The position numbers were made by a program, and so were the translations under genes. A stretch of DNA of 40,168 nucleotides from Myxococcota bacterium (GTDB lineage: Bacteria > Myxococcota_A > UBA9160 > PR03). The stretch spans positions 1-40,168 of the forward strand of contig JANQRO010000344.1 in assembly GCA_028284525.1 (NCBI GenBank), read 5' to 3'. Each line of letters opens with the position of its first letter. Positions within the stretch are counted from its first letter, which is position 1. Under the pieces are notes generated by a model. The model was not told the DNA's origin and searched no databases. It saw only the letters and a list, made by a program, of their open reading frames with translations. Shown one piece after another: positions 26,789 to 35,243 of this stretch.

Positions 26789-28021
26789 CTACGGCGAGGC
26801 CGGGTTGGCCGCGCGCCGCTCGGCGCCGCCGAGGGGCAGACAGAGCAACGCCGATACGGCGACGAAGAGCGCCGAGCCGAGCAGACAGGCGAGGAGACCG
26901 GTCTGGCCCCCGCCCGCGGCCTGGAAGAGCGCTCCCGAGAGCAGCATCCCCACGAGCCGCCCGCCGGCGTTCGCCATGTAGTAGAAGCCGACCCGCAGGG
27001 CGACGCTCTCGCTCTCGGCATAGGCGACGATCAGGTAGCTGTGCAGGGCGCTGTCCACCGCGAAGGCCACGCCGAAGACGGCGAGCCCGGCGACCAGGGC
27101 GAACGCCGGTGGGGCGCCCACCGCCAGCGCTCCGCCGAGGGCACCCAACGGGAGCAACAGGAAGCCCGTCCAGCCGAGCAGGGCACCCGCCGCGCGGGGC
27201 GCGGCGTCGGGGCGCCGCACAAGCGCCGGCGCGAGCGCCTGCACGCCGCCGTAGCCGATGATCCACAGCGCCAGGAATCCGCTCACCTGGGAGAAGCTCC
27301 AGCCGAGACTCGAGGCCAGGAAGACCGGGAGCGCGACGGCGAACCACAGGTCGCGGGAGCCAAAGAGAAAGAACCGCGCGGCCGCGAGCCAGTTGATGCG
27401 GGCGTCGTCCGAGAACACCGAGCGAAGCGGCATCTTGGTCGTGGTCTTTCCCGCGGCCCGGGGGAGGACGAGGGACGAGACGAGGAGCCCCACGCCCACC
27501 AGCGCCGCCATCGCCGCGCAGGCCGCGGCAAAGCCCAGCGTCTCGAGGGCGACCCCTCCGAGCAGGAAGCCCACGCCCTTGAGCGTGTTCTTGGATCCCG
27601 TGATGAGGGCGACCCCGCGCAGCAGGCCCGCGCCGTCGTCTTCCGGCACCACGAGCTTCACGAAGCTCTTCGAGCTCATCTTGGTGAGGTCTTTGGCGAT
27701 CCCCGAAAGCCCCTGGCAGGCCATCACCAGGACGACCGAGAGCTCGCCGGCGCGTAGCGCCAGCACCGCGCAGGCGAGGATCTGGAGGGCGAGCCCGCCG
27801 CTCAGCGTGGCGTTCAGCCCGAAGCGGCCGCCGAGCCAGCCGCCGACGAGATTGGTCACGACCCCGAAGAACTCGTAGAGCAGGAAGAGGGTGGCGAGCT
27901 CCAGGGGGCTGTACCCCAGGCTGTGGAGGTAGAGGAGCACGAGGGTGCGCAGGGCGCCGTCGGTGACGGTGAAGGCGCCGTAGGTGGCGCTCACCACCGC
28001 GTAGGAGCGCAGGTCGCGCAC
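26789..28021 (-). CDS. arsJ: ArsJ-like organoarsenical (1-arseno-3-phosphoglycerate) efflux MFS transporter
   Basis: GTG start; LRSYAVVSATYGAFTVTDGALRTLVLLYLHSLGYSPLELATLFLLYEFFGVVTNLVGGWLGGRFGLNATLSGGLALQ, ArsJ-type N terminus; 2 nt downstream of a GAPDH gene. Confidence 0.9.
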   Translation of the reverse strand: MRDLRSYAVVSATYGAFTVTDGALRTLVLLYLHSLGYSPLELATLFLLYEFFGVVTNLVGGWLGGRFGLNATLSGGLALQILACAVLALRAGELSVVLVMACQGLSGIAKDLTKMSSKSFVKLVVPEDDGAGLLRGVALITGSKNTLKGVGFLLGGVALETLGFAAACAAMAALVGVGLLVSSLVLPRAAGKTTTKMPLRSVFSDDARINWLAAARFFLFGSRDLWFAVALPVFLASSLGWSFSQVSGFLALWIIGYGGVQALAPALVRRPDAAPRAAGALLGWTGFLLLPLGALGGALAVGAPPAFALVAGLAVFGVAFAVDSALHSYLIVAYAESESVALRVGFYYMANAGGRLVGMLLSGALFQAAGGGQTGLLACLLGSALFVAVSALLCLPLGGAERRAANPASP

Positions 28022-28023
28022 GG

Positions 28024-29037
28024 CTAGCCCCGGGCCCGGGCGATCGCCTCGGCGAGGTCGATCATCCGCCGGACGTAGCCCCACTCGTTGTCGTACCACA
28101 CGAGCAGCTTCACGAGTCGCCCGTCGGTGACGCGGGTCGAGGGCGCGTCGACGATCGCCGAGCGCGGGTCGCCCGAGAAGTCGCCGCTCACCAAGGGCCG
28201 GTCTTCGACGCCGAGGATGCCCTCGAGGGGCGGTGTCTTCGCGGCGGTGCGGAGCGTCTCGCACACCTCCTCCGGCGTGGTGTCACGGGAGAGCTGGAAG
28301 ACCCCGTCCACCAACGAGGCGTGGAGACACGGGTTGCGCACCGCGACGCTGTCGAGTTTTCCGGCGAGCTCCGGAAGGATCAGCGTGACCGCGTAGGCCG
28401 AGTTGGTGCTGGTGGGGATCAGGTGCTGGGCGGCGGCCCGGGAGCGACGCACGTCGCCTCCGTCCCGGGGCAGGTCGAGCACCTCCTGGGTGTTGGTCGG
28501 GGCGTGGATCGTCGTCACCAGCCCCCGCTCGATGCCGAAGACCCGGTGGAGCACCTGGACCACCGGGGCCAGACAGTTGGTCGTGCAAGAGGCGGCGCTC
28601 AGGACCGGAAGCTCGGCCAGCGCGAAGCGCTGGTGGTTCACGCCGAACACGATGTTGGCGTCGATGTCCCGCACGGGCGCCGAGACCAGCACCTGGCGCG
28701 CCCCCGCGTCGTGATGGCCCTGGAGGAGGGCCCGCTCGCGGAAGCGCCCGCTGCACTCGAGGACGAGCTCGACGCCGTGCTCGCGCCACGCGATCTCGCC
28801 GGGGGTCTGGCACCGGCTGCGAGGGAGGACGCGGTCGCCCACGGCGAGACCGCCCGCGCCCGCCGCACACGGCGTGTCGAAGCGGCCGTGGAGGGTGTCG
28901 AACTCGAGGAGCACCGCCAGGGCGTCGTCGTCGGCGTGGGGCTCGTTCACCGCGACGAACTCGAGGTGCTCGGAGGCCCAGCCGGCGCGGAGCGCGAGCC
29001 GCCCCATCCGCCCGAAGCCGTTGATCCCGACCCGCAT
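28024..29037 (-). CDS. ArsJ-associated glyceraldehyde-3-phosphate dehydrogenase
   Basis: MRVGINGFGRMGRLALR, SAASCTTNCLAPVVQVLH catalytic Cys, WYDNEWGYVRRM; immediately upstream of arsJ. Confidence 0.93.
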   Translation of the reverse strand: MRVGINGFGRMGRLALRAGWASEHLEFVAVNEPHADDDALAVLLEFDTLHGRFDTPCAAGAGGLAVGDRVLPRSRCQTPGEIAWREHGVELVLECSGRFRERALLQGHHDAGARQVLVSAPVRDIDANIVFGVNHQRFALAELPVLSAASCTTNCLAPVVQVLHRVFGIERGLVTTIHAPTNTQEVLDLPRDGGDVRRSRAAAQHLIPTSTNSAYAVTLILPELAGKLDSVAVRNPCLHASLVDGVFQLSRDTTPEEVCETLRTAAKTPPLEGILGVEDRPLVSGDFSGDPRSAIVDAPSTRVTDGRLVKLLVWYDNEWGYVRRMIDLAEAIARARG

Positions 29038-29078
29038 CGTCACGCGCGGACGTCGCGTCGCACGGGGCGCCCCACGGC

Positions 29079-29873
29079 CTACCCGAAGCGCCCCGTGATG
29101 TAGTCCTGGGTCCGTTCGTCGCGCGGGTTGGTGAAGATCGTGTCGGTCTCCCCTTCCTCGACCAGGATGCCGAGGTGGAAGAACGCCGTCCGCTGGGACA
29201 CGCGTGCCGCCTGCTGCATGTTGTGGGTGACGATCACGATCGTGAAATTCTCCCGCAGCTCATCGATCAGATCTTCGATCTTGGCGGTCGCGATCGGGTC
29301 GAGTGCCGAGCAGGGCTCGTCCATCAAGATGACCTCGGGACTGACCGCGATCGCGCGGGCGATGCAGAGACGTTGTTGCTGACCGCCCGAGAGACCCGTC
29401 CCGGGCTCCACCAATCGGTCGTTCACCTCTTCCCAGAGCCCCGCCTTCCGCAGCGCCCACTCCACCCGATCGTCGGTCTCGGAGCGGGTCTCCGTGAGAC
29501 CGTGGATCCGGAGCCCGTACGCGACGTTCTCGTAGATCGACTTGGGGAAGGGGTTGGGCTTCTGGAACACCATCCCGACCCGCGCGCGGAGCTTGACGAC
29601 GTCGACTTCCGGTCCGTAGAGGTCTTCGCCGTCGAGCGCGAGCTTCCCGACCACGCGACATCCCTCGATGACGTCGTTCATGCGGTTGAAGGTGCGCAAG
29701 AACGTCGACTTCCCGCAGCCCGAGGGGCCGATCAACGCGGTGACCTGGCGTTCCAGCACGTCGAGGTTCACGTCGAAGAGCGCCTGTTTCTCGCCGTAGA
29801 AGACGCTGACGTCCCGTGCGGTGATCTTCGGCGCGTGTTGGGACAAGACGGAACTCCCCGGGGAGGATTGCAT
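29079..29873 (-). CDS. pstB: Phosphate ABC transporter ATP-binding protein
   Basis: [69 protein letters not shown]. Confidence 0.96.
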
Positions 29874-29884
29874 CGGCCCTCCCG

Positions 29885-31192
29885 CTACCAGCGACGCTCG
29901 AACCGATTGCGGAGTAGCACGGCCGCGAGGTTCATGACCACCAGGAAGAGCAACAGAACCAGGATCGCGGCGGCCGTCAGGGCCTCGAAGGCGCGTTCGG
30001 GACTGTCCGCCCACAGAAAGACCTGCACCGGGAGCACCGTCGCGGGGGACGTGAGACCCGTGGGCACGTCGACGATGAAGGCCACCATGCCGATCATCAG
30101 CAGGGGGGCGGTCTCTCCCAGCGCGCGGGCCATGCCGATGATGGTTCCCGTGAGGATTCCGGGGGTCGCGAGGGGGAGGACGTGGTGCACGACACACTGC
30201 AGCGGGGAGGCCCCGACGCCGAGCGCGGCTTCGCGGACCGAGGGCGGCACCGCGGCGAGGGCCGCCCGCGCCGCGATGATCACCACGGGCAGGGTCAGGA
30301 GGGCGAGCACGATCCCTCCGACCAACGGGGCCGATCGCGGCAGCGCCAAGAAGTTCAGCAGGAACGCCAGCCCGAGCAGACCGAAGACGATCGACGGCAC
30401 CGCCGCCAGGTTGTTGATGTTGACCTCGATGATGTCGGTCCAGCGGTTGCGCGGGGCGAATTCCTCGAGATAGACGGCCGTCGCGACACCCAGGGGGAAG
30501 CACAGGGCGAGGGTGACCGCGAGGGTCAAGGCGGTCCCGACGACCGATCCCCACACCCCGGCGAGCTCGGGCTCGCGGCTGTCGCCCGAGGTGAAGAAGC
30601 GCGTGTTGAGGCCCCCCTGGATCATCCCGCGCTCGTCCAGCGTCTGGAGCCACCCTACCTCGGCGTCGCTGAGCCGCCGTTCGCCTTCGGGAACGTCGAG
30701 AGCGACGCGCCCCTTGAAGAACAAGTCGGCGTCGTCGCTGATCGGAAGCGTCACCGCGCGACGCGTGCCGAGGATCGCGGGGTCGGACGCCACCGTGTCG
30801 CCGAGCTCGTAGGCCGCGCCGCTGCTCATCAACCCGCGGAGTCGGCGCTTCTCGCGCCGACCGGAGACCTCGGGAAACTCGGCGTAGAGGCTCGTGCGGA
30901 TCAGGCTCTCGTAGTTGGCCCTCGCCCAGACGGACGGATCCCCGCTCCCCTCCGGGTCGATGACGGCCGGGTCGAAGAAGATCTCGAGGGTGACGCTGTG
31001 CCCGAAGAACCCGCTGTAGCCCCGCACCGCGATGCTGCCGAGCAAGAGCACGAGGGCGCCGAGCGCGGCGGCGATCGAGAGGACGCCGTAGAGCCGAAAG
31101 CGCCGCTCGGCGGCGTAGCGTTTCCGCAAACGCCGCTCCGCCGCCTCGCTGTCCGTCCACGAAATGGCGACGTCCCGGGTCCCCTCACTCAT
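29885..31192 (-). CDS. pstA: Phosphate ABC transporter permease PstA with extended N-terminal periplasmic domain
   Basis: Polytopic C-terminal half with [39 protein letters not shown] and [12 protein letters not shown]; ~190 aa N-terminal insertion. Confidence 0.94.
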
Positions 31193-32555
31193 ACTGTTCT
31201 CGGTACTTCTTCACCACGCGCAGCGCGACGATGTTGAGCGTCAGCGTGACGAAGAACAGCACCAGCCCCAACGCAAACGCCGCGAGGGTCTTGGCGCTGT
31301 CGAATTCCTGGTCTCCCACCAGCAGGGTCACGATCTGCACCGTCACCGTGGTGACGGCGGCAAAGGGGTTGCCGGTGAGGTTCGCCGCGAGGCCGGCGGC
31401 CATCACCACGATCATGGTTTCCCCGACGGCCCGGGAGATCGCCAACAGCACGGCGCCGACGATCCCCGGGAGCGCCGCGGGGAGGACCACGCGGCGGATG
31501 GTCTCCGATTTCGTGCTTCCCAACGCGAGCGAGCCCTCTCGCAACGCCTGGGGGACGGCACTGATGACGTCGTCCGAGAGCGAAGAGACGAAGGGGACGA
31601 TCATCACGCCCATCACCAGCCCCGCCGCCAACGCGCTCTCCGAGGCCGCTTCGAGTCCGATCGACTCGGCGAACTGTCGAATCACCGGGCCCACCGAGAG
31701 CGCCGCAAAGAAGCCGTAGACCACGGTCGGGATGCCCGCGAGGATCTCGAGGGAGGGCTTCACCACGGCGCGCGTCCGCTCGCTCGCATAGTCCGACAGG
31801 TAGATTGCCGACATCAGTCCGATCGGAACCGCGACGACCATCGCGATCAGCGTGATCAGCGCGGTGCCGGCGAACACGGGAATCGCCCCAAAGGATCCCG
31901 AAGACCCCACCTGGTCGGCGCGCAGCGCGGTTTGCGGGCTCCAGTGCGTTCCGAAGAGAAAGTCGAAGGGGGTCACGAGGGCGAAGAAGCGCATCGCCTC
32001 GAAGACGAGAGAGAGCACGATTCCAATCGTGGTCAGGATCGCGATGGTCGAGCAGACGATGAGCGCCACCCGGACCGTGCGCTCCACCGCGTGACGCGCA
32101 CGGAGACGCGGGTGCACCCGTCGCAGGGCAAAGGCGAGGCCGCCGAGCGCCACCGCGAGTCCCACGCCGACCGTCGAGAGATCGCCGACGGCGCCGAGAC
32201 GCGTGTAGTGGTCGGCCACACGCTGCAGCGCGGGGGTCGGGTCGGTGCTCGTGATGTCGCCGCGGGCGAGCTGCCGCGCGTCCTCGAGAAAGCGGTCGAT
32301 CCGCTCCGGGGGGAGCTCGCGCACCGCCGCGGGAAGATCGGCGCGAACCAGCTCCTCGATCAGCGCGGGGCCGCCCACGGCTCCGATCAGCACGACGGCG
32401 AGCGCTGGAAGGCCACACCAGAGCGCGACATAGGCCCCGTGGTAGTGCGGACGCGAGTGCGCGGCGTCCCCGGCGCGGGCGGCCGCCCGGCGGCGGCCTG
32501 CGCCGAACGCGGTGGCGAGGAGTGCCAGGAGGGCGATCGAGAACGCGGTGAGCAT
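31185..32555 (-). CDS. pstC: Phosphate ABC transporter permease PstC
   Basis: FFALVTPFDFLFGTHWSPQ, IYLSDYASERTRAVVKPSLEILAGIPTVVYGFFAAL, ISRAVGETMIVVMAAG. Confidence 0.94.
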   Translation of the reverse strand: MLTAFSIALLALLATAFGAGRRRAAARAGDAAHSRPHYHGAYVALWCGLPALAVVLIGAVGGPALIEELVRADLPAAVRELPPERIDRFLEDARQLARGDITSTDPTPALQRVADHYTRLGAVGDLSTVGVGLAVALGGLAFALRRVHPRLRARHAVERTVRVALIVCSTIAILTTIGIVLSLVFEAMRFFALVTPFDFLFGTHWSPQTALRADQVGSSGSFGAIPVFAGTALITLIAMVVAVPIGLMSAIYLSDYASERTRAVVKPSLEILAGIPTVVYGFFAALSVGPVIRQFAESIGLEAASESALAAGLVMGVMIVPFVSSLSDDVISAVPQALREGSLALGSTKSETIRRVVLPAALPGIVGAVLLAISRAVGETMIVVMAAGLAANLTGNPFAAVTTVTVQIVTLLVGDQEFDSAKTLAAFALGLVLFFVTLTLNIVALRVVKKYREQYE

Positions 32556-32607
32556 GGGAGGGGCCGGGGAGCGGGCCGGGGTCCGACCTCTCCCATGGAG
32601 GGAAGAG

Positions 32608-33666
32608 CTAGGGCGCCGAGACGGCCGCCGTCATCGGGGTCATACCGCGCGCCGCGTTCCGGACTTCCGCGCGCTCCGCTTCGGGGAGCGGGATCAGGCC
32701 TTTGTCGGCGAGATAGCCTTCGTCCCCGGTCGCGCGATCGCTGGTGAACTCGTCGACGAATTCCTGGAGCCCGGGGACGACGCCGACGTGGGCTTTCTTG
32801 ACGTAGAAGTAGAGCGAACGGGAGATCCCGTAGTCGCCCGCGGCGATGTTCTCGAAGGTGGGTTCGACCCCGCCGACCTTGTTCCCCTGCACCTTGTCCG
32901 CGTTCTGATCGAGAAAGGAGAACCCGAAGATCCCGAAGGCGCTGGGGTTGGCCTCGAGCTTCTGGACGATCAGGTTGTCGTTCTCGCCGGCTTCGATGTA
33001 GGCGCCGTCCTCGCGGATGGCGTGGGCGACGGCCTTGAAGGCCTTCTTGTCCTCGCCTCGCAGCTTGCCCAGCATTGGAATCCCCGTTGCGCCGCCCTCC
33101 ATCGCGAGTTCGACGAAGGCGTCCCGGGTGCCCGAGGTCGGCGGCGGCCCCAGGACCTCGATCTTGGCCGCCGGAAGCGACGGGTCGACGTCCTTCCAGG
33201 TCGTGTAGGGGTTGGCGAAGAGCTTGCCCTGCACCGGAACCTCTTTCGCCAGCGCCCGGAAGATCTGCTCCTTGGTGAAGTCGAGGCGTTCGCCCCCCTT
33301 GGCGTTGGCCAGCACGATTCCGTCGAAGCCGATCTTCACCTCGACGATCTCCGTCACCCCGTTGCTCCGGCAGGTCTCGACCTCCGACTCCTTGATCTTT
33401 CGCGAGGAGTTGGTGACGTCGGGGGTGCCGACACCGACGCCGGAGCAGAAGAGCTTGAGGCCACCGCCGGACCCGGTGCTCTCGACGACCGGCGTCTTGA
33501 AGTCCGTGGACCTGCCAAAGGTCTCCGCCACCGCCGTCGAGAACGGGAAGACCGTCGACGAGCCGACGATCCGAATCTGATCGCGGGCTTCGGCGAGACC
33601 CGCGAGCCCGAGGCTCGCGAGGCCTGCGAACACCGCAACTATCTGTTTCACGTACGCAATCTCCAT
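32608..33666 (-). CDS. pstS: Phosphate ABC transporter substrate-binding protein
   Basis: Signal-like N terminus, RDQIRIVGSSTVFPFSTAVAETFG, VVESTGSGGGLKLFC, GPPPTSGTRDAFVELAM. Confidence 0.94.
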   Translation of the reverse strand: MEIAYVKQIVAVFAGLASLGLAGLAEARDQIRIVGSSTVFPFSTAVAETFGRSTDFKTPVVESTGSGGGLKLFCSGVGVGTPDVTNSSRKIKESEVETCRSNGVTEIVEVKIGFDGIVLANAKGGERLDFTKEQIFRALAKEVPVQGKLFANPYTTWKDVDPSLPAAKIEVLGPPPTSGTRDAFVELAMEGGATGIPMLGKLRGEDKKAFKAVAHAIREDGAYIEAGENDNLIVQKLEANPSAFGIFGFSFLDQNADKVQGNKVGGVEPTFENIAAGDYGISRSLYFYVKKAHVGVVPGLQEFVDEFTSDRATGDEGYLADKGLIPLPEAERAEVRNAARGMTPMTAAVSAP

Positions 33667-33813
33667 CCTGGGATCTGGGGGGACTCGTCCGGGGTGCGGC
33701 CCGAGCGGCGCGGCGCCCACGGCATCACCGGGTGTCCAGCCGCGGAGAGCGTCGGCCCGCCTCTCGACTCGCGCAAGAGGATTGGGGTTTTGCGGCCCGG
33801 ACGCCCGCGGGGG

Positions 33814-33833
33814 AACGTGAAGAAAACGTGAAG
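33814..33833. promoter_or_regulatory. Candidate Pho-box-like direct repeat between pstS and the porin
   Basis: AACGTGAAG (33814-33822) and AACGTGAAG (33825-33833), 11-bp periodicity; opposite strand reads CTTCACGTTTTCTTCACGTT. Confidence 0.5.
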
Positions 33834-33929
33834 ATTTTCGCATTCGCGTGGCGCCCGATGCCTCGCGTACCGTCCGGCGCCGCGATCCTGTGTGCCGCGA
33901 TCGACCCAACCATAGAAGGAGAAGAACGG

Positions 33930-35243
33930 GTGACGCAAGAGAACCGGAGGAGGGCGAGCATCGCCGTGGTGATGGCTCTGCCCTTTCTGGCCGCGCCGGC
34001 TGGCGCTGCCAACGAGGAACTGCTCCAGATCCTCCTCGACAACGGCGCCATCACCAGCGAGCAGTACGAGCGGCTGCGCGAGAAGGAGGAGCTCGAGGCC
34101 AAGGATTTCCCCAAGGTGGAGATGTCGGTGGGGCGCCGGGGCGTCCGGGTGAAGACCACGGACGGCCAGTTCGCCTTCAAGATCGGCGGCCGGGTCCACG
34201 TGCAGGCCTCCGGTCACCGCGGCCGGCTGGAGGGCGACGCGAGAAACGGGACGGAGATCCGCCGGGCGCGTTTCGACCTCGAGAGCACGCTCTACCGGGA
34301 CTGGCACTGGAAGGGCGAGGTCGACTGGGCGGACAACGACGTCGGGGTGAAGGACTTCTTCGTGTCGTACAGCGGCCTGGACGGGATCGGGCTCTCCGCC
34401 GGCCACCAGAAGCAGCCCTACAGCCTCGCCGTCGAGATGAGCTCGAACGACATCCCGTTCATCGAGCGCGGCGTCGACACCGATCTGATCCTTCCCTTCG
34501 CCGACCGCGCGATCGGCGTGCGGACCGACCTCTCCGGGGAGCGTTGGTACTTCGCCGGCGGGATCTACGGGGGGTCGGTCGACCCGGAGGAGCTCGGTAG
34601 CGAAGGCTGGGGTGTGGCGGGCCGTGTCGTGTACGCCCCGATCCTCGACGAACGCAGGGTCTTGCACCTCGGCGCCCGCTCCCTGTTCCGCGAGCCCGGC
34701 GACGACCAGACCCGTGTCCGCTCCGAAACCACCCATATGTCGAGCCTGTTCACCTCCGACACGGGGCTCCTGCAGGACATCGATCAGGCGGCCGTGGTCG
34801 GCCCGGAAGCGACGCTCGCCTGGGGACCCTTCTCCGTCGGCGGCGAGTACAACCACGCGTTCCTGCGCCGGAGCGGGAGCAGCAACCTCGTCTTCAACAG
34901 CTGGCACGTCGAGGCGACCTGGTCGCTCACCGGCGAGACGCGCGCGTCCGCCTACCGGATCGGCAGCGGCGAGTTCGAACGCCTCCACCCCGACCGCAAC
35001 TTCGGCCTCCAGTCGGGCGGCCCCGGCGCCTGGGAGCTCGCGGCGCGCTACGCCGCCATCGATCTGGACGACGAGGACGTGGAGGGGGGCGAGCAGGGGA
35101 CCTTCACCTTGGCGCTCAACTGGTACGTGAATCCAACCGTTCGACTCATGCTCGAGTGGTCCAAGATCCTGGACACCAACTCGACCAACCGGGACGCGGA
35201 AGATCTCGACGTGTTTCAAAGCCGCGTGCAGTTCGCGTTCTGA
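33930..35243 (+). CDS. Phosphate-selective porin OprO/OprP-like
   Basis: GTG start after AGAAGGAGAAG RBS-like sequence; signal peptide; FAFKIGGRVHVQASGHRG...RRARFDLESTLYRDWHWKGEVDWADNDVGVKDFFVSY; C-terminal aromatic FQSRVQFAF. Confidence 0.9.
   Translation: MTQENRRRASIAVVMALPFLAAPAGAANEELLQILLDNGAITSEQYERLREKEELEAKDFPKVEMSVGRRGVRVKTTDGQFAFKIGGRVHVQASGHRGRLEGDARNGTEIRRARFDLESTLYRDWHWKGEVDWADNDVGVKDFFVSYSGLDGIGLSAGHQKQPYSLAVEMSSNDIPFIERGVDTDLILPFADRAIGVRTDLSGERWYFAGGIYGGSVDPEELGSEGWGVAGRVVYAPILDERRVLHLGARSLFREPGDDQTRVRSETTHMSSLFTSDTGLLQDIDQAAVVGPEATLAWGPFSVGGEYNHAFLRRSGSSNLVFNSWHVEATWSLTGETRASAYRIGSGEFERLHPDRNFGLQSGGPGAWELAARYAAIDLDDEDVEGGEQGTFTLALNWYVNPTVRLMLEWSKILDTNSTNRDAEDLDVFQSRVQFAF

Follow-up and report, generated by a model that had tools for sequence, protein, structure and literature searches.

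A putative phosphate-starvation operon joining pstSCAB to gap and arsJ in a Myxococcota draft genome

Introduction

In an uncultured Myxococcota bacterium (assembly GCA_028284525.1), the genes of a Pst phosphate importer are followed on the same strand by gap, encoding a glyceraldehyde-3-phosphate dehydrogenase (GAPDH), and arsJ, encoding an exporter of the major facilitator superfamily (MFS). The six genes lie on contig JANQRO010000344.1 (C490 in our numbering), and this entire contig of 40 kb (~70% G+C) is the window analysed here. The locus probably constitutes one phosphate-starvation (Pho) operon, pstS-pstC-pstA-pstB-gap-arsJ, that handles arsenate. From the sequence we infer, with good reason, co-transcription, binding of PhoB, arsenate export activity and arsenic-independent induction.

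Under phosphate scarcity, a PhoB-type regulator would bind a box between pstS and a divergent porin gene and activate the importer genes, perhaps along with the porin gene. The terminal genes, gap and arsJ, would deal with arsenate, a toxic mimic of phosphate, that slips through the importer: the dedicated GAPDH would join arsenate and glyceraldehyde-3-phosphate into 1-arseno-3-phosphoglycerate, and ArsJ would export this compound or free arsenate. The supply of exporter would then track import capacity rather than arsenic sensing, and a hairpin at the pstB stop codon may hold the amount of gap-arsJ product below that of pst.

In the usual description, ArsR mediates the induction of arsenate resistance by arsenic. 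Coupling an exporter to phosphate starvation would make its supply anticipatory, because low-phosphate water has a high arsenate-to-phosphate ratio just when Pst is made. Such coupling would account for growth under trace arsenate without arsenic sensing, and would provide a rule for genome searches, namely a Pho box, pst and arsJ with no arsR.

Gene order and a candidate Pho box

The gene order runs along the minus strand from 33666 to 26789, with successive junctions of 52, −8 (an overlap), 11, 35 and 2 nucleotides (nt). An earlier note on this DNA had reported six same-strand genes divergent from an OprO/P-like porin, and intact open frames in all seven genes, together with family matches, confirm this. 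Its junction lengths also hold (the 8-nt pstC/pstA overlap, 11 nt and 2 nt), the pstB-gap spacer being 35 nt from the GTG start of gap at 29043 and 41 nt from an alternative ATG at 29037. As that note had stated, arsR, arsC and acr3 are absent from the 40-kb window. No ArsR-type protein is encoded on the contig, nor within 6 kb of arsJ, and the locus does not have the make-up of an ArsR-controlled ars operon.

A Pho-box-like tandem repeat, TCTTCACGTTTTCTTCACGT (33815-33834, minus strand; 7-bp units with an 11-bp period), points towards pstS, as its counterparts in relatives do, from about 150 nt upstream. Scoring used a position weight matrix that excludes the window: it was derived by aligning 29 regions upstream of pstS from the same class, and its consensus nCGTCACnnAAtCGTCACAn is a tandem repeat of 11 bp. 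Over both strands of the window (~80,000 positions), this site ranked first at 16.9 bits, followed by a runner-up at 13.5, and nothing notable was seen at the pstB-gap junction. A putative Pho box, recognised by a matrix that excludes the window, thus precedes the first gene. Across the 4.7 Mb of the genome there are two exact CTTCACN5CTTCAC matches, of which one lies in the pstS/porin gap. Tandem repeats are present in 25 of 30 pstS upstream regions and in 0 of one shuffle set; the unit was found on the same data, so these counts are descriptive. The E. coli-type Pho consensus (CTGTCAT) did not fit the window repeat, matching at most 6/14 positions among the windows listed, and a class-specific profile was therefore needed.

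Candidate phosphate regulators are encoded elsewhere in the genome. A phoU gene (C424:2008-2631) is grouped on contig C424 with a PhoB-like regulator, the best of 33 matches at 253 bits, and with a PhoR-like kinase recognised by reading of open reading frames (ORFs).

Importer genes and porin

A binding protein, two permeases and an ATPase, all of Pst families, are encoded in a single operon and make up a predicted high-affinity PstSCAB phosphate transporter. The periplasmic phosphate-binding protein gene pstS (32608-33666, minus strand, as are all six) passes PF12849 at 171 bits and stays below the cut-off of TIGR02136 (142 vs 207); a mechanical ORF begins earlier, at 33909, than the assigned start at 33666. 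Permease genes pstC (31185-32555; N-terminal DUF3708, PF12501) and pstA (29885-31192; N-terminal DUF3333, PF11812) pass TIGR02138 at 289 bits and TIGR00974 at 211 bits, respectively, and the ATPase gene pstB (29079-29873) passes TIGR00972 at 401 bits. This is the single Pst locus found in the genome. A PBP_like_2 match on contig C63 (L152) was considered as a second Pst and rejected, as by ORF reading it sits in a TupABC-like (tungstate) ATP-binding cassette transporter gene set.

The divergent gene (33930-35243, plus strand) encodes a predicted OprO/OprP-type outer-membrane porin that passes PF07396 (Porin_O_P) at 162 bits and matches it over its full length (profile positions 1-370 of 370). 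Its GTG start at 33930 is preceded by the purine-rich AGAAGGAG and is separated from the pstS start on the opposite strand by a 263-nt gap. Porin relatives are found near pst in several same-class genomes.

Identity of gap and arsJ

The arsJ product (26789-28021, minus strand), of the family of MFS exporters of arsenate or 1-arseno-3-phosphoglycerate, passes NF033734 with 482 bits against a cut-off of 400 and covers the profile at full length (positions 1-390 of 392). The ArsJ tree places it among gap-linked ArsJ proteins, as sister (support 96) to the ArsJ of the same-class genome G144. A composition check for foreign origin gave G+C contents at third codon positions of 0.94-0.95 for gap-arsJ and 0.88-0.92 for pst, and one flanking gene also reached 0.94.

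The gap product (28024-29043, minus strand) has its best match in NF033735, the ArsJ-associated type of GAPDH, at 404 bits, below the cut-off of 450; its closest relative, the GAPDH of G144, scores 470. A tree was made from 79 ArsJ-linked sequences, the window's included, and two ordinary GAPDHs, one from contig C75 of the same genome and the other E. coli GapA. The window GAPDH groups with the ArsJ-linked enzymes, apart from the two ordinary ones, with support 100; some branches are long, and fine placement is therefore unsure. This grouping, together with its position 2 nt from arsJ, is as expected of an ArsJ-associated GAPDH. Its identity to ArsJ-linked GAPDHs reaches 62% (to the G144 enzyme, its nearest) with a median of 49%, for most of them higher than the 46% shared with the C75 enzyme. 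Scoring 436, the C75 enzyme exceeds the cut-off for ordinary GAPDH-I (367), and the window GAPDH is therefore probably not the housekeeping copy.

Catalytic C149 and H176 are retained in the window GAPDH. The substitution A210S is present in 79/79 ArsJ-linked GAPDHs, the window's included, and G209N in only 4/79, the window's among them. We take both positions to lie beside the inorganic phosphate site, in the phosphate-binding loop, and the G209N/A210S pair is suggestive of a preference for arsenate.

It is very improbable that this GAPDH and the MFS protein act in phosphate or phosphoglycerate metabolism under starvation, unrelated to arsenic. Their genes do sit within a phosphate operon and the GAPDH score falls short of the ArsJ-associated cut-off, but the MFS protein scores above the cut-off of the ArsJ equivalog model and clusters with gap-linked ArsJ, and the GAPDH belongs to the ArsJ-linked clade, unlike the genome's housekeeping-type enzyme. 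In addition, no PF03960 ArsC was found in the genome, and another arsenate route would therefore be useful. A solitary Acr3 arsenite exporter is encoded on contig C420 (L151:2048-3160), where neither arsR nor arsC was recognised next to it.

The chemistry of export is a separate matter. The earlier note took it as established that GAPDH-made 1-arseno-3-phosphoglycerate is exported by ArsJ; this is one model, whereas data from Vibrio cholerae favour export of free arsenate, with 1-arseno-3-phosphoglycerate detected inside the cells and not outside, and with loss of ArsJ more harmful than loss of VarG (PMC9601151). ArsJ may thus export free arsenate while the GAPDH provides an arsenate-buffering side route, a serious possibility that we nevertheless lean somewhat against, and one compatible with a Pho operon since control would still be by phosphate. 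The pst-linked arsJ of Aliidiomarina sedimenti, which has no GAPDH gene in its 21-kb locus, also points to free arsenate. On the other side, when mfs2 (arsJ) and gapdh were disrupted in an acr3-deletion background of Halomonas sp. GFAJ-1, arsenate resistance was abolished or impaired (PMC5930303), and 69 of the 75 loci surveyed below have a GAPDH gene shortly before arsJ. Also, V. cholerae has VarH, and the window operon contains no VarH counterpart.

Transcription across the pstB-gap junction

A GC-rich hairpin lies over the pstB stop codon (29061-29097, minus strand), with perfect 10-bp arms CACGGGGCGC/GCGCCCCGTG, a 17-nt loop and no T-run. A stem of this length was found in 0/35 related pstB 3' ends and in 0/60 shuffles, and the RNA fold z-score is only −1.6. 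The hairpin could be a partial terminator or attenuator, a processing site or an intercistronic mRNA-stability element. Mainly because of it we do not claim equal expression of the two parts, and gap-arsJ may be made at a level below, or otherwise unequal to, that of pst. The proposal in the earlier note that importer and exporter are co-expressed under phosphate control accordingly stands in part: the candidate Pho box at pstS, the contig free of arsR and the Pho genes elsewhere speak for phosphate control, whereas the hairpin implies that levels may differ. That note had held that a separate arsenic-regulated promoter between pstB and gap would overturn its reading. No Pho box was seen there, and a promoter scan found no sigma-70-like promoter, with 0.2 expected, a weak test at 70% G+C. 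No T-tailed terminator was found at the junction, a terminator scan yielding four terminator-like sites against 3.5 expected, none of them at pstB-gap.

Several points weigh against a single Pho operon. Transcripts might end or be processed at the hairpin, which is specific to the window, and gap-arsJ would then be uncoupled from pst. Seven ArsR-type proteins are encoded elsewhere in the genome, none on the window's contig, and could act in trans; most ArsJ loci are arsR-linked, with an ArsR-type match within 6 kb in 52/75. The Pho-box units of the window (CTTCACG) differ from the class consensus (CGTCACA) and their 16.9 bits are below the scores of most relatives. The PhoB-like protein scores less than the TIGR02154 cut-off of 296 bits, as do the matches in 10 of 12 control genomes with one, and the window GAPDH less than that of NF033735. 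In Nodularia, most arsenate genes respond weakly to phosphate (PMC9846622). Lastly, a second pst or an arsR-arsJ copy could be absent from the assembled sequence, the genome being a draft of 4.72 Mb in 601 contigs with 87% completeness and 5.9% contamination.

The first of these points could be read as making gap-arsJ a separate, arsenic-responsive unit, the Pho transcript being stopped or cut at the hairpin and the pair being served by a weak promoter of its own or by an ArsR in trans. The prevalence of ArsR at ArsJ loci elsewhere and the seven unlinked ArsR-type genes would fit this as well. We regard it as unlikely, as the pstB-gap spacer is only 35-41 nt with no promoter recognised in that weak test, no T-run follows the hairpin and no ArsR is encoded on the 40-kb contig. 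Further, pst-linked arsJ likewise occurs without arsR in two other loci, the pstCAB-phoU-arsJ of Aliidiomarina and the head-to-head locus of G144. A single Pho operon, with possibly unequal output along its length, is the reading that we retain.

Distribution of pst-linked arsJ

Close PstC relatives occur at 38 loci in 37 of 91 same-class genomes (the window's own included). In nearly all 38, phoU adjoins pst, downstream or divergently, and only in the window's locus does gap-arsJ stand behind pstB. ArsJ was found in just one other genome of the class, G144, whose gap-arsJ pair follows a hydrolase-like gene; these three genes are head-to-head with pstSCAB-phoU, the hydrolase-like gene lying between, and arsR is absent. 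The five genomes of the same family have either no close Pst or a more distant one, and none has ArsJ; in one same-family genome a PstC-like frame is interrupted by a single TAG stop (G061:C76:18543-19691, L166). In G017, a genome of the same order, an arsenate-reductase-like gene of the thioredoxin-type family (L163:2869-3426, minus strand; 68 bits to TIGR02691, below cut-off) is directly upstream of pstSCAB, and would be another arsenate-handling gene joined to pst in the window's group.

Beyond the class, we surveyed the surroundings of arsJ in 75 loci that had 3.5 kb or more of upstream sequence (the window's included), looking for ArsR-type matches up to 6 kb and pst genes up to 9 kb away. 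The loci were chosen by ArsJ similarity and not by context, except those from the window's own phylum. A pst gene is nearby in 16/75, the window's included, where we estimate that ~0.5 would be expected, and all four pst genes are nearby in 6/75. Random placement of the pair beside the genome's single pst operon has an estimated probability of ~1 in 10^3. Given these two figures, chance adjacency of gap-arsJ and pst is unlikely. Nine loci with partial pst are cyanobacterial, with an extra pstS (sphX), which directly precedes gap-arsJ in eight (L005, L019, L024, L046, L050, L053, L066 and L081), arsR being mostly present. One further gap-arsJ pair is on a contig labelled as a Bifidobacterium breve metagenome-assembled genome (L077), and the label may be a binning error.

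The clearest independent parallel is on a single contig of Aliidiomarina sedimenti (L058:5569-11224), in which pstS and a Pho box (13/14 consensus matches) are followed by pstC-pstA-pstB-phoU-arsJ. Only 5 nt separate arsJ from phoU, and no arsR was found within 6 kb. Its ArsJ is far from the window ArsJ in the tree, which argues that arsJ and pst were joined independently. The earlier note had suggested a search for pst-gap-arsJ synteny without arsR: Aliidiomarina and G144 supply parallels. ArsJ loci lacking a neighbouring arsR are as such not rare (23/75). Tentatively, and with nearly balanced confidence, we suggest that pst operons have captured arsJ modules more than once (in the window, head-to-head in G144, and independently in Aliidiomarina) as a built-in proofreading of uptake, in which phosphate starvation would switch on efflux without arsenic sensing.

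Comparison with known systems

Classical arsR-gap-arsJ operons, such as those of Pseudomonas aeruginosa DK2 (Chen et al. 2016, as cited in PMC5930303) and the var operon of V. cholerae (PMC9601151), share the two-gene core of GAPDH and ArsJ with the window. They differ in having no pst genes, and the V. cholerae operon is ArsR-controlled and arsenate-induced. Two plasmid ArsJ loci, of Halomonas pHAL1 and Hydrocarboniclastica, are ordinary arsR/arsC islands without pst. Surveyed Aio/ars/pst arsenic islands (PMC3834237) also link arsenic and phosphate genes; however, they are centred on the arsenite oxidase aioBA, whereas the ArsJ of the window has a different arsenic function.

In cyanobacteria, arsR-sphX(pstS)-gap3-arsJ clusters (PMC3610870, PMC4284471) combine a phosphate-binding protein with GAPDH and ArsJ. 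For Anabaena, a phosphate-starvation (SphR) site was predicted ahead of sphX-gap3 (PMC1906773). Nodularia under phosphate limitation shows a modest rise of its ArsJ-associated gap (log2 up to 2.4) and of arsJ (up to 1.2), as described in the only paper found on ArsJ together with PhoB within a limited library (PMC9846622). These clusters differ from the window in containing an extra binding protein only, not a whole importer, and usually have arsR upstream. Aliidiomarina sedimenti resembles the window in having arsJ last in a pst operon behind a Pho box with no nearby arsR, and differs in that phoU is kept, gap is absent and ArsJ is of a distant branch.

The arsenic island of Halomonas sp. GFAJ-1 comprises pstBACS, mfs1-mfs2(arsJ)-gapdh and arsH1-acr3-arsH2 (PMC5930303). 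As in the window, Pst genes, ArsJ and GAPDH share one neighbourhood and an arsenate reductase is not needed; in GFAJ-1, however, mfs1-mfs2-gapdh is a separate operon with acr3 and arsH nearby, whereas in the window gap-arsJ comes straight after pstB in the same direction, a candidate Pho box precedes the gene string and the contig lacks acr3. Pst-type systems are reported to be highly phosphate-selective (cited in PMC5930303), and the statement in the earlier note that Pst admits arsenate is therefore best limited to leakage, rather than bulk import, being handled. The link between phosphate and arsenate genes is known (PMC5930303, PMC3610870, PMC1906773, PMC4284471), and the earlier note's description of an under-described system does not hold to that extent. 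While association of arsJ with phosphate genes is thus not new, gap-arsJ directly behind pstB under a candidate Pho box is a new arrangement.

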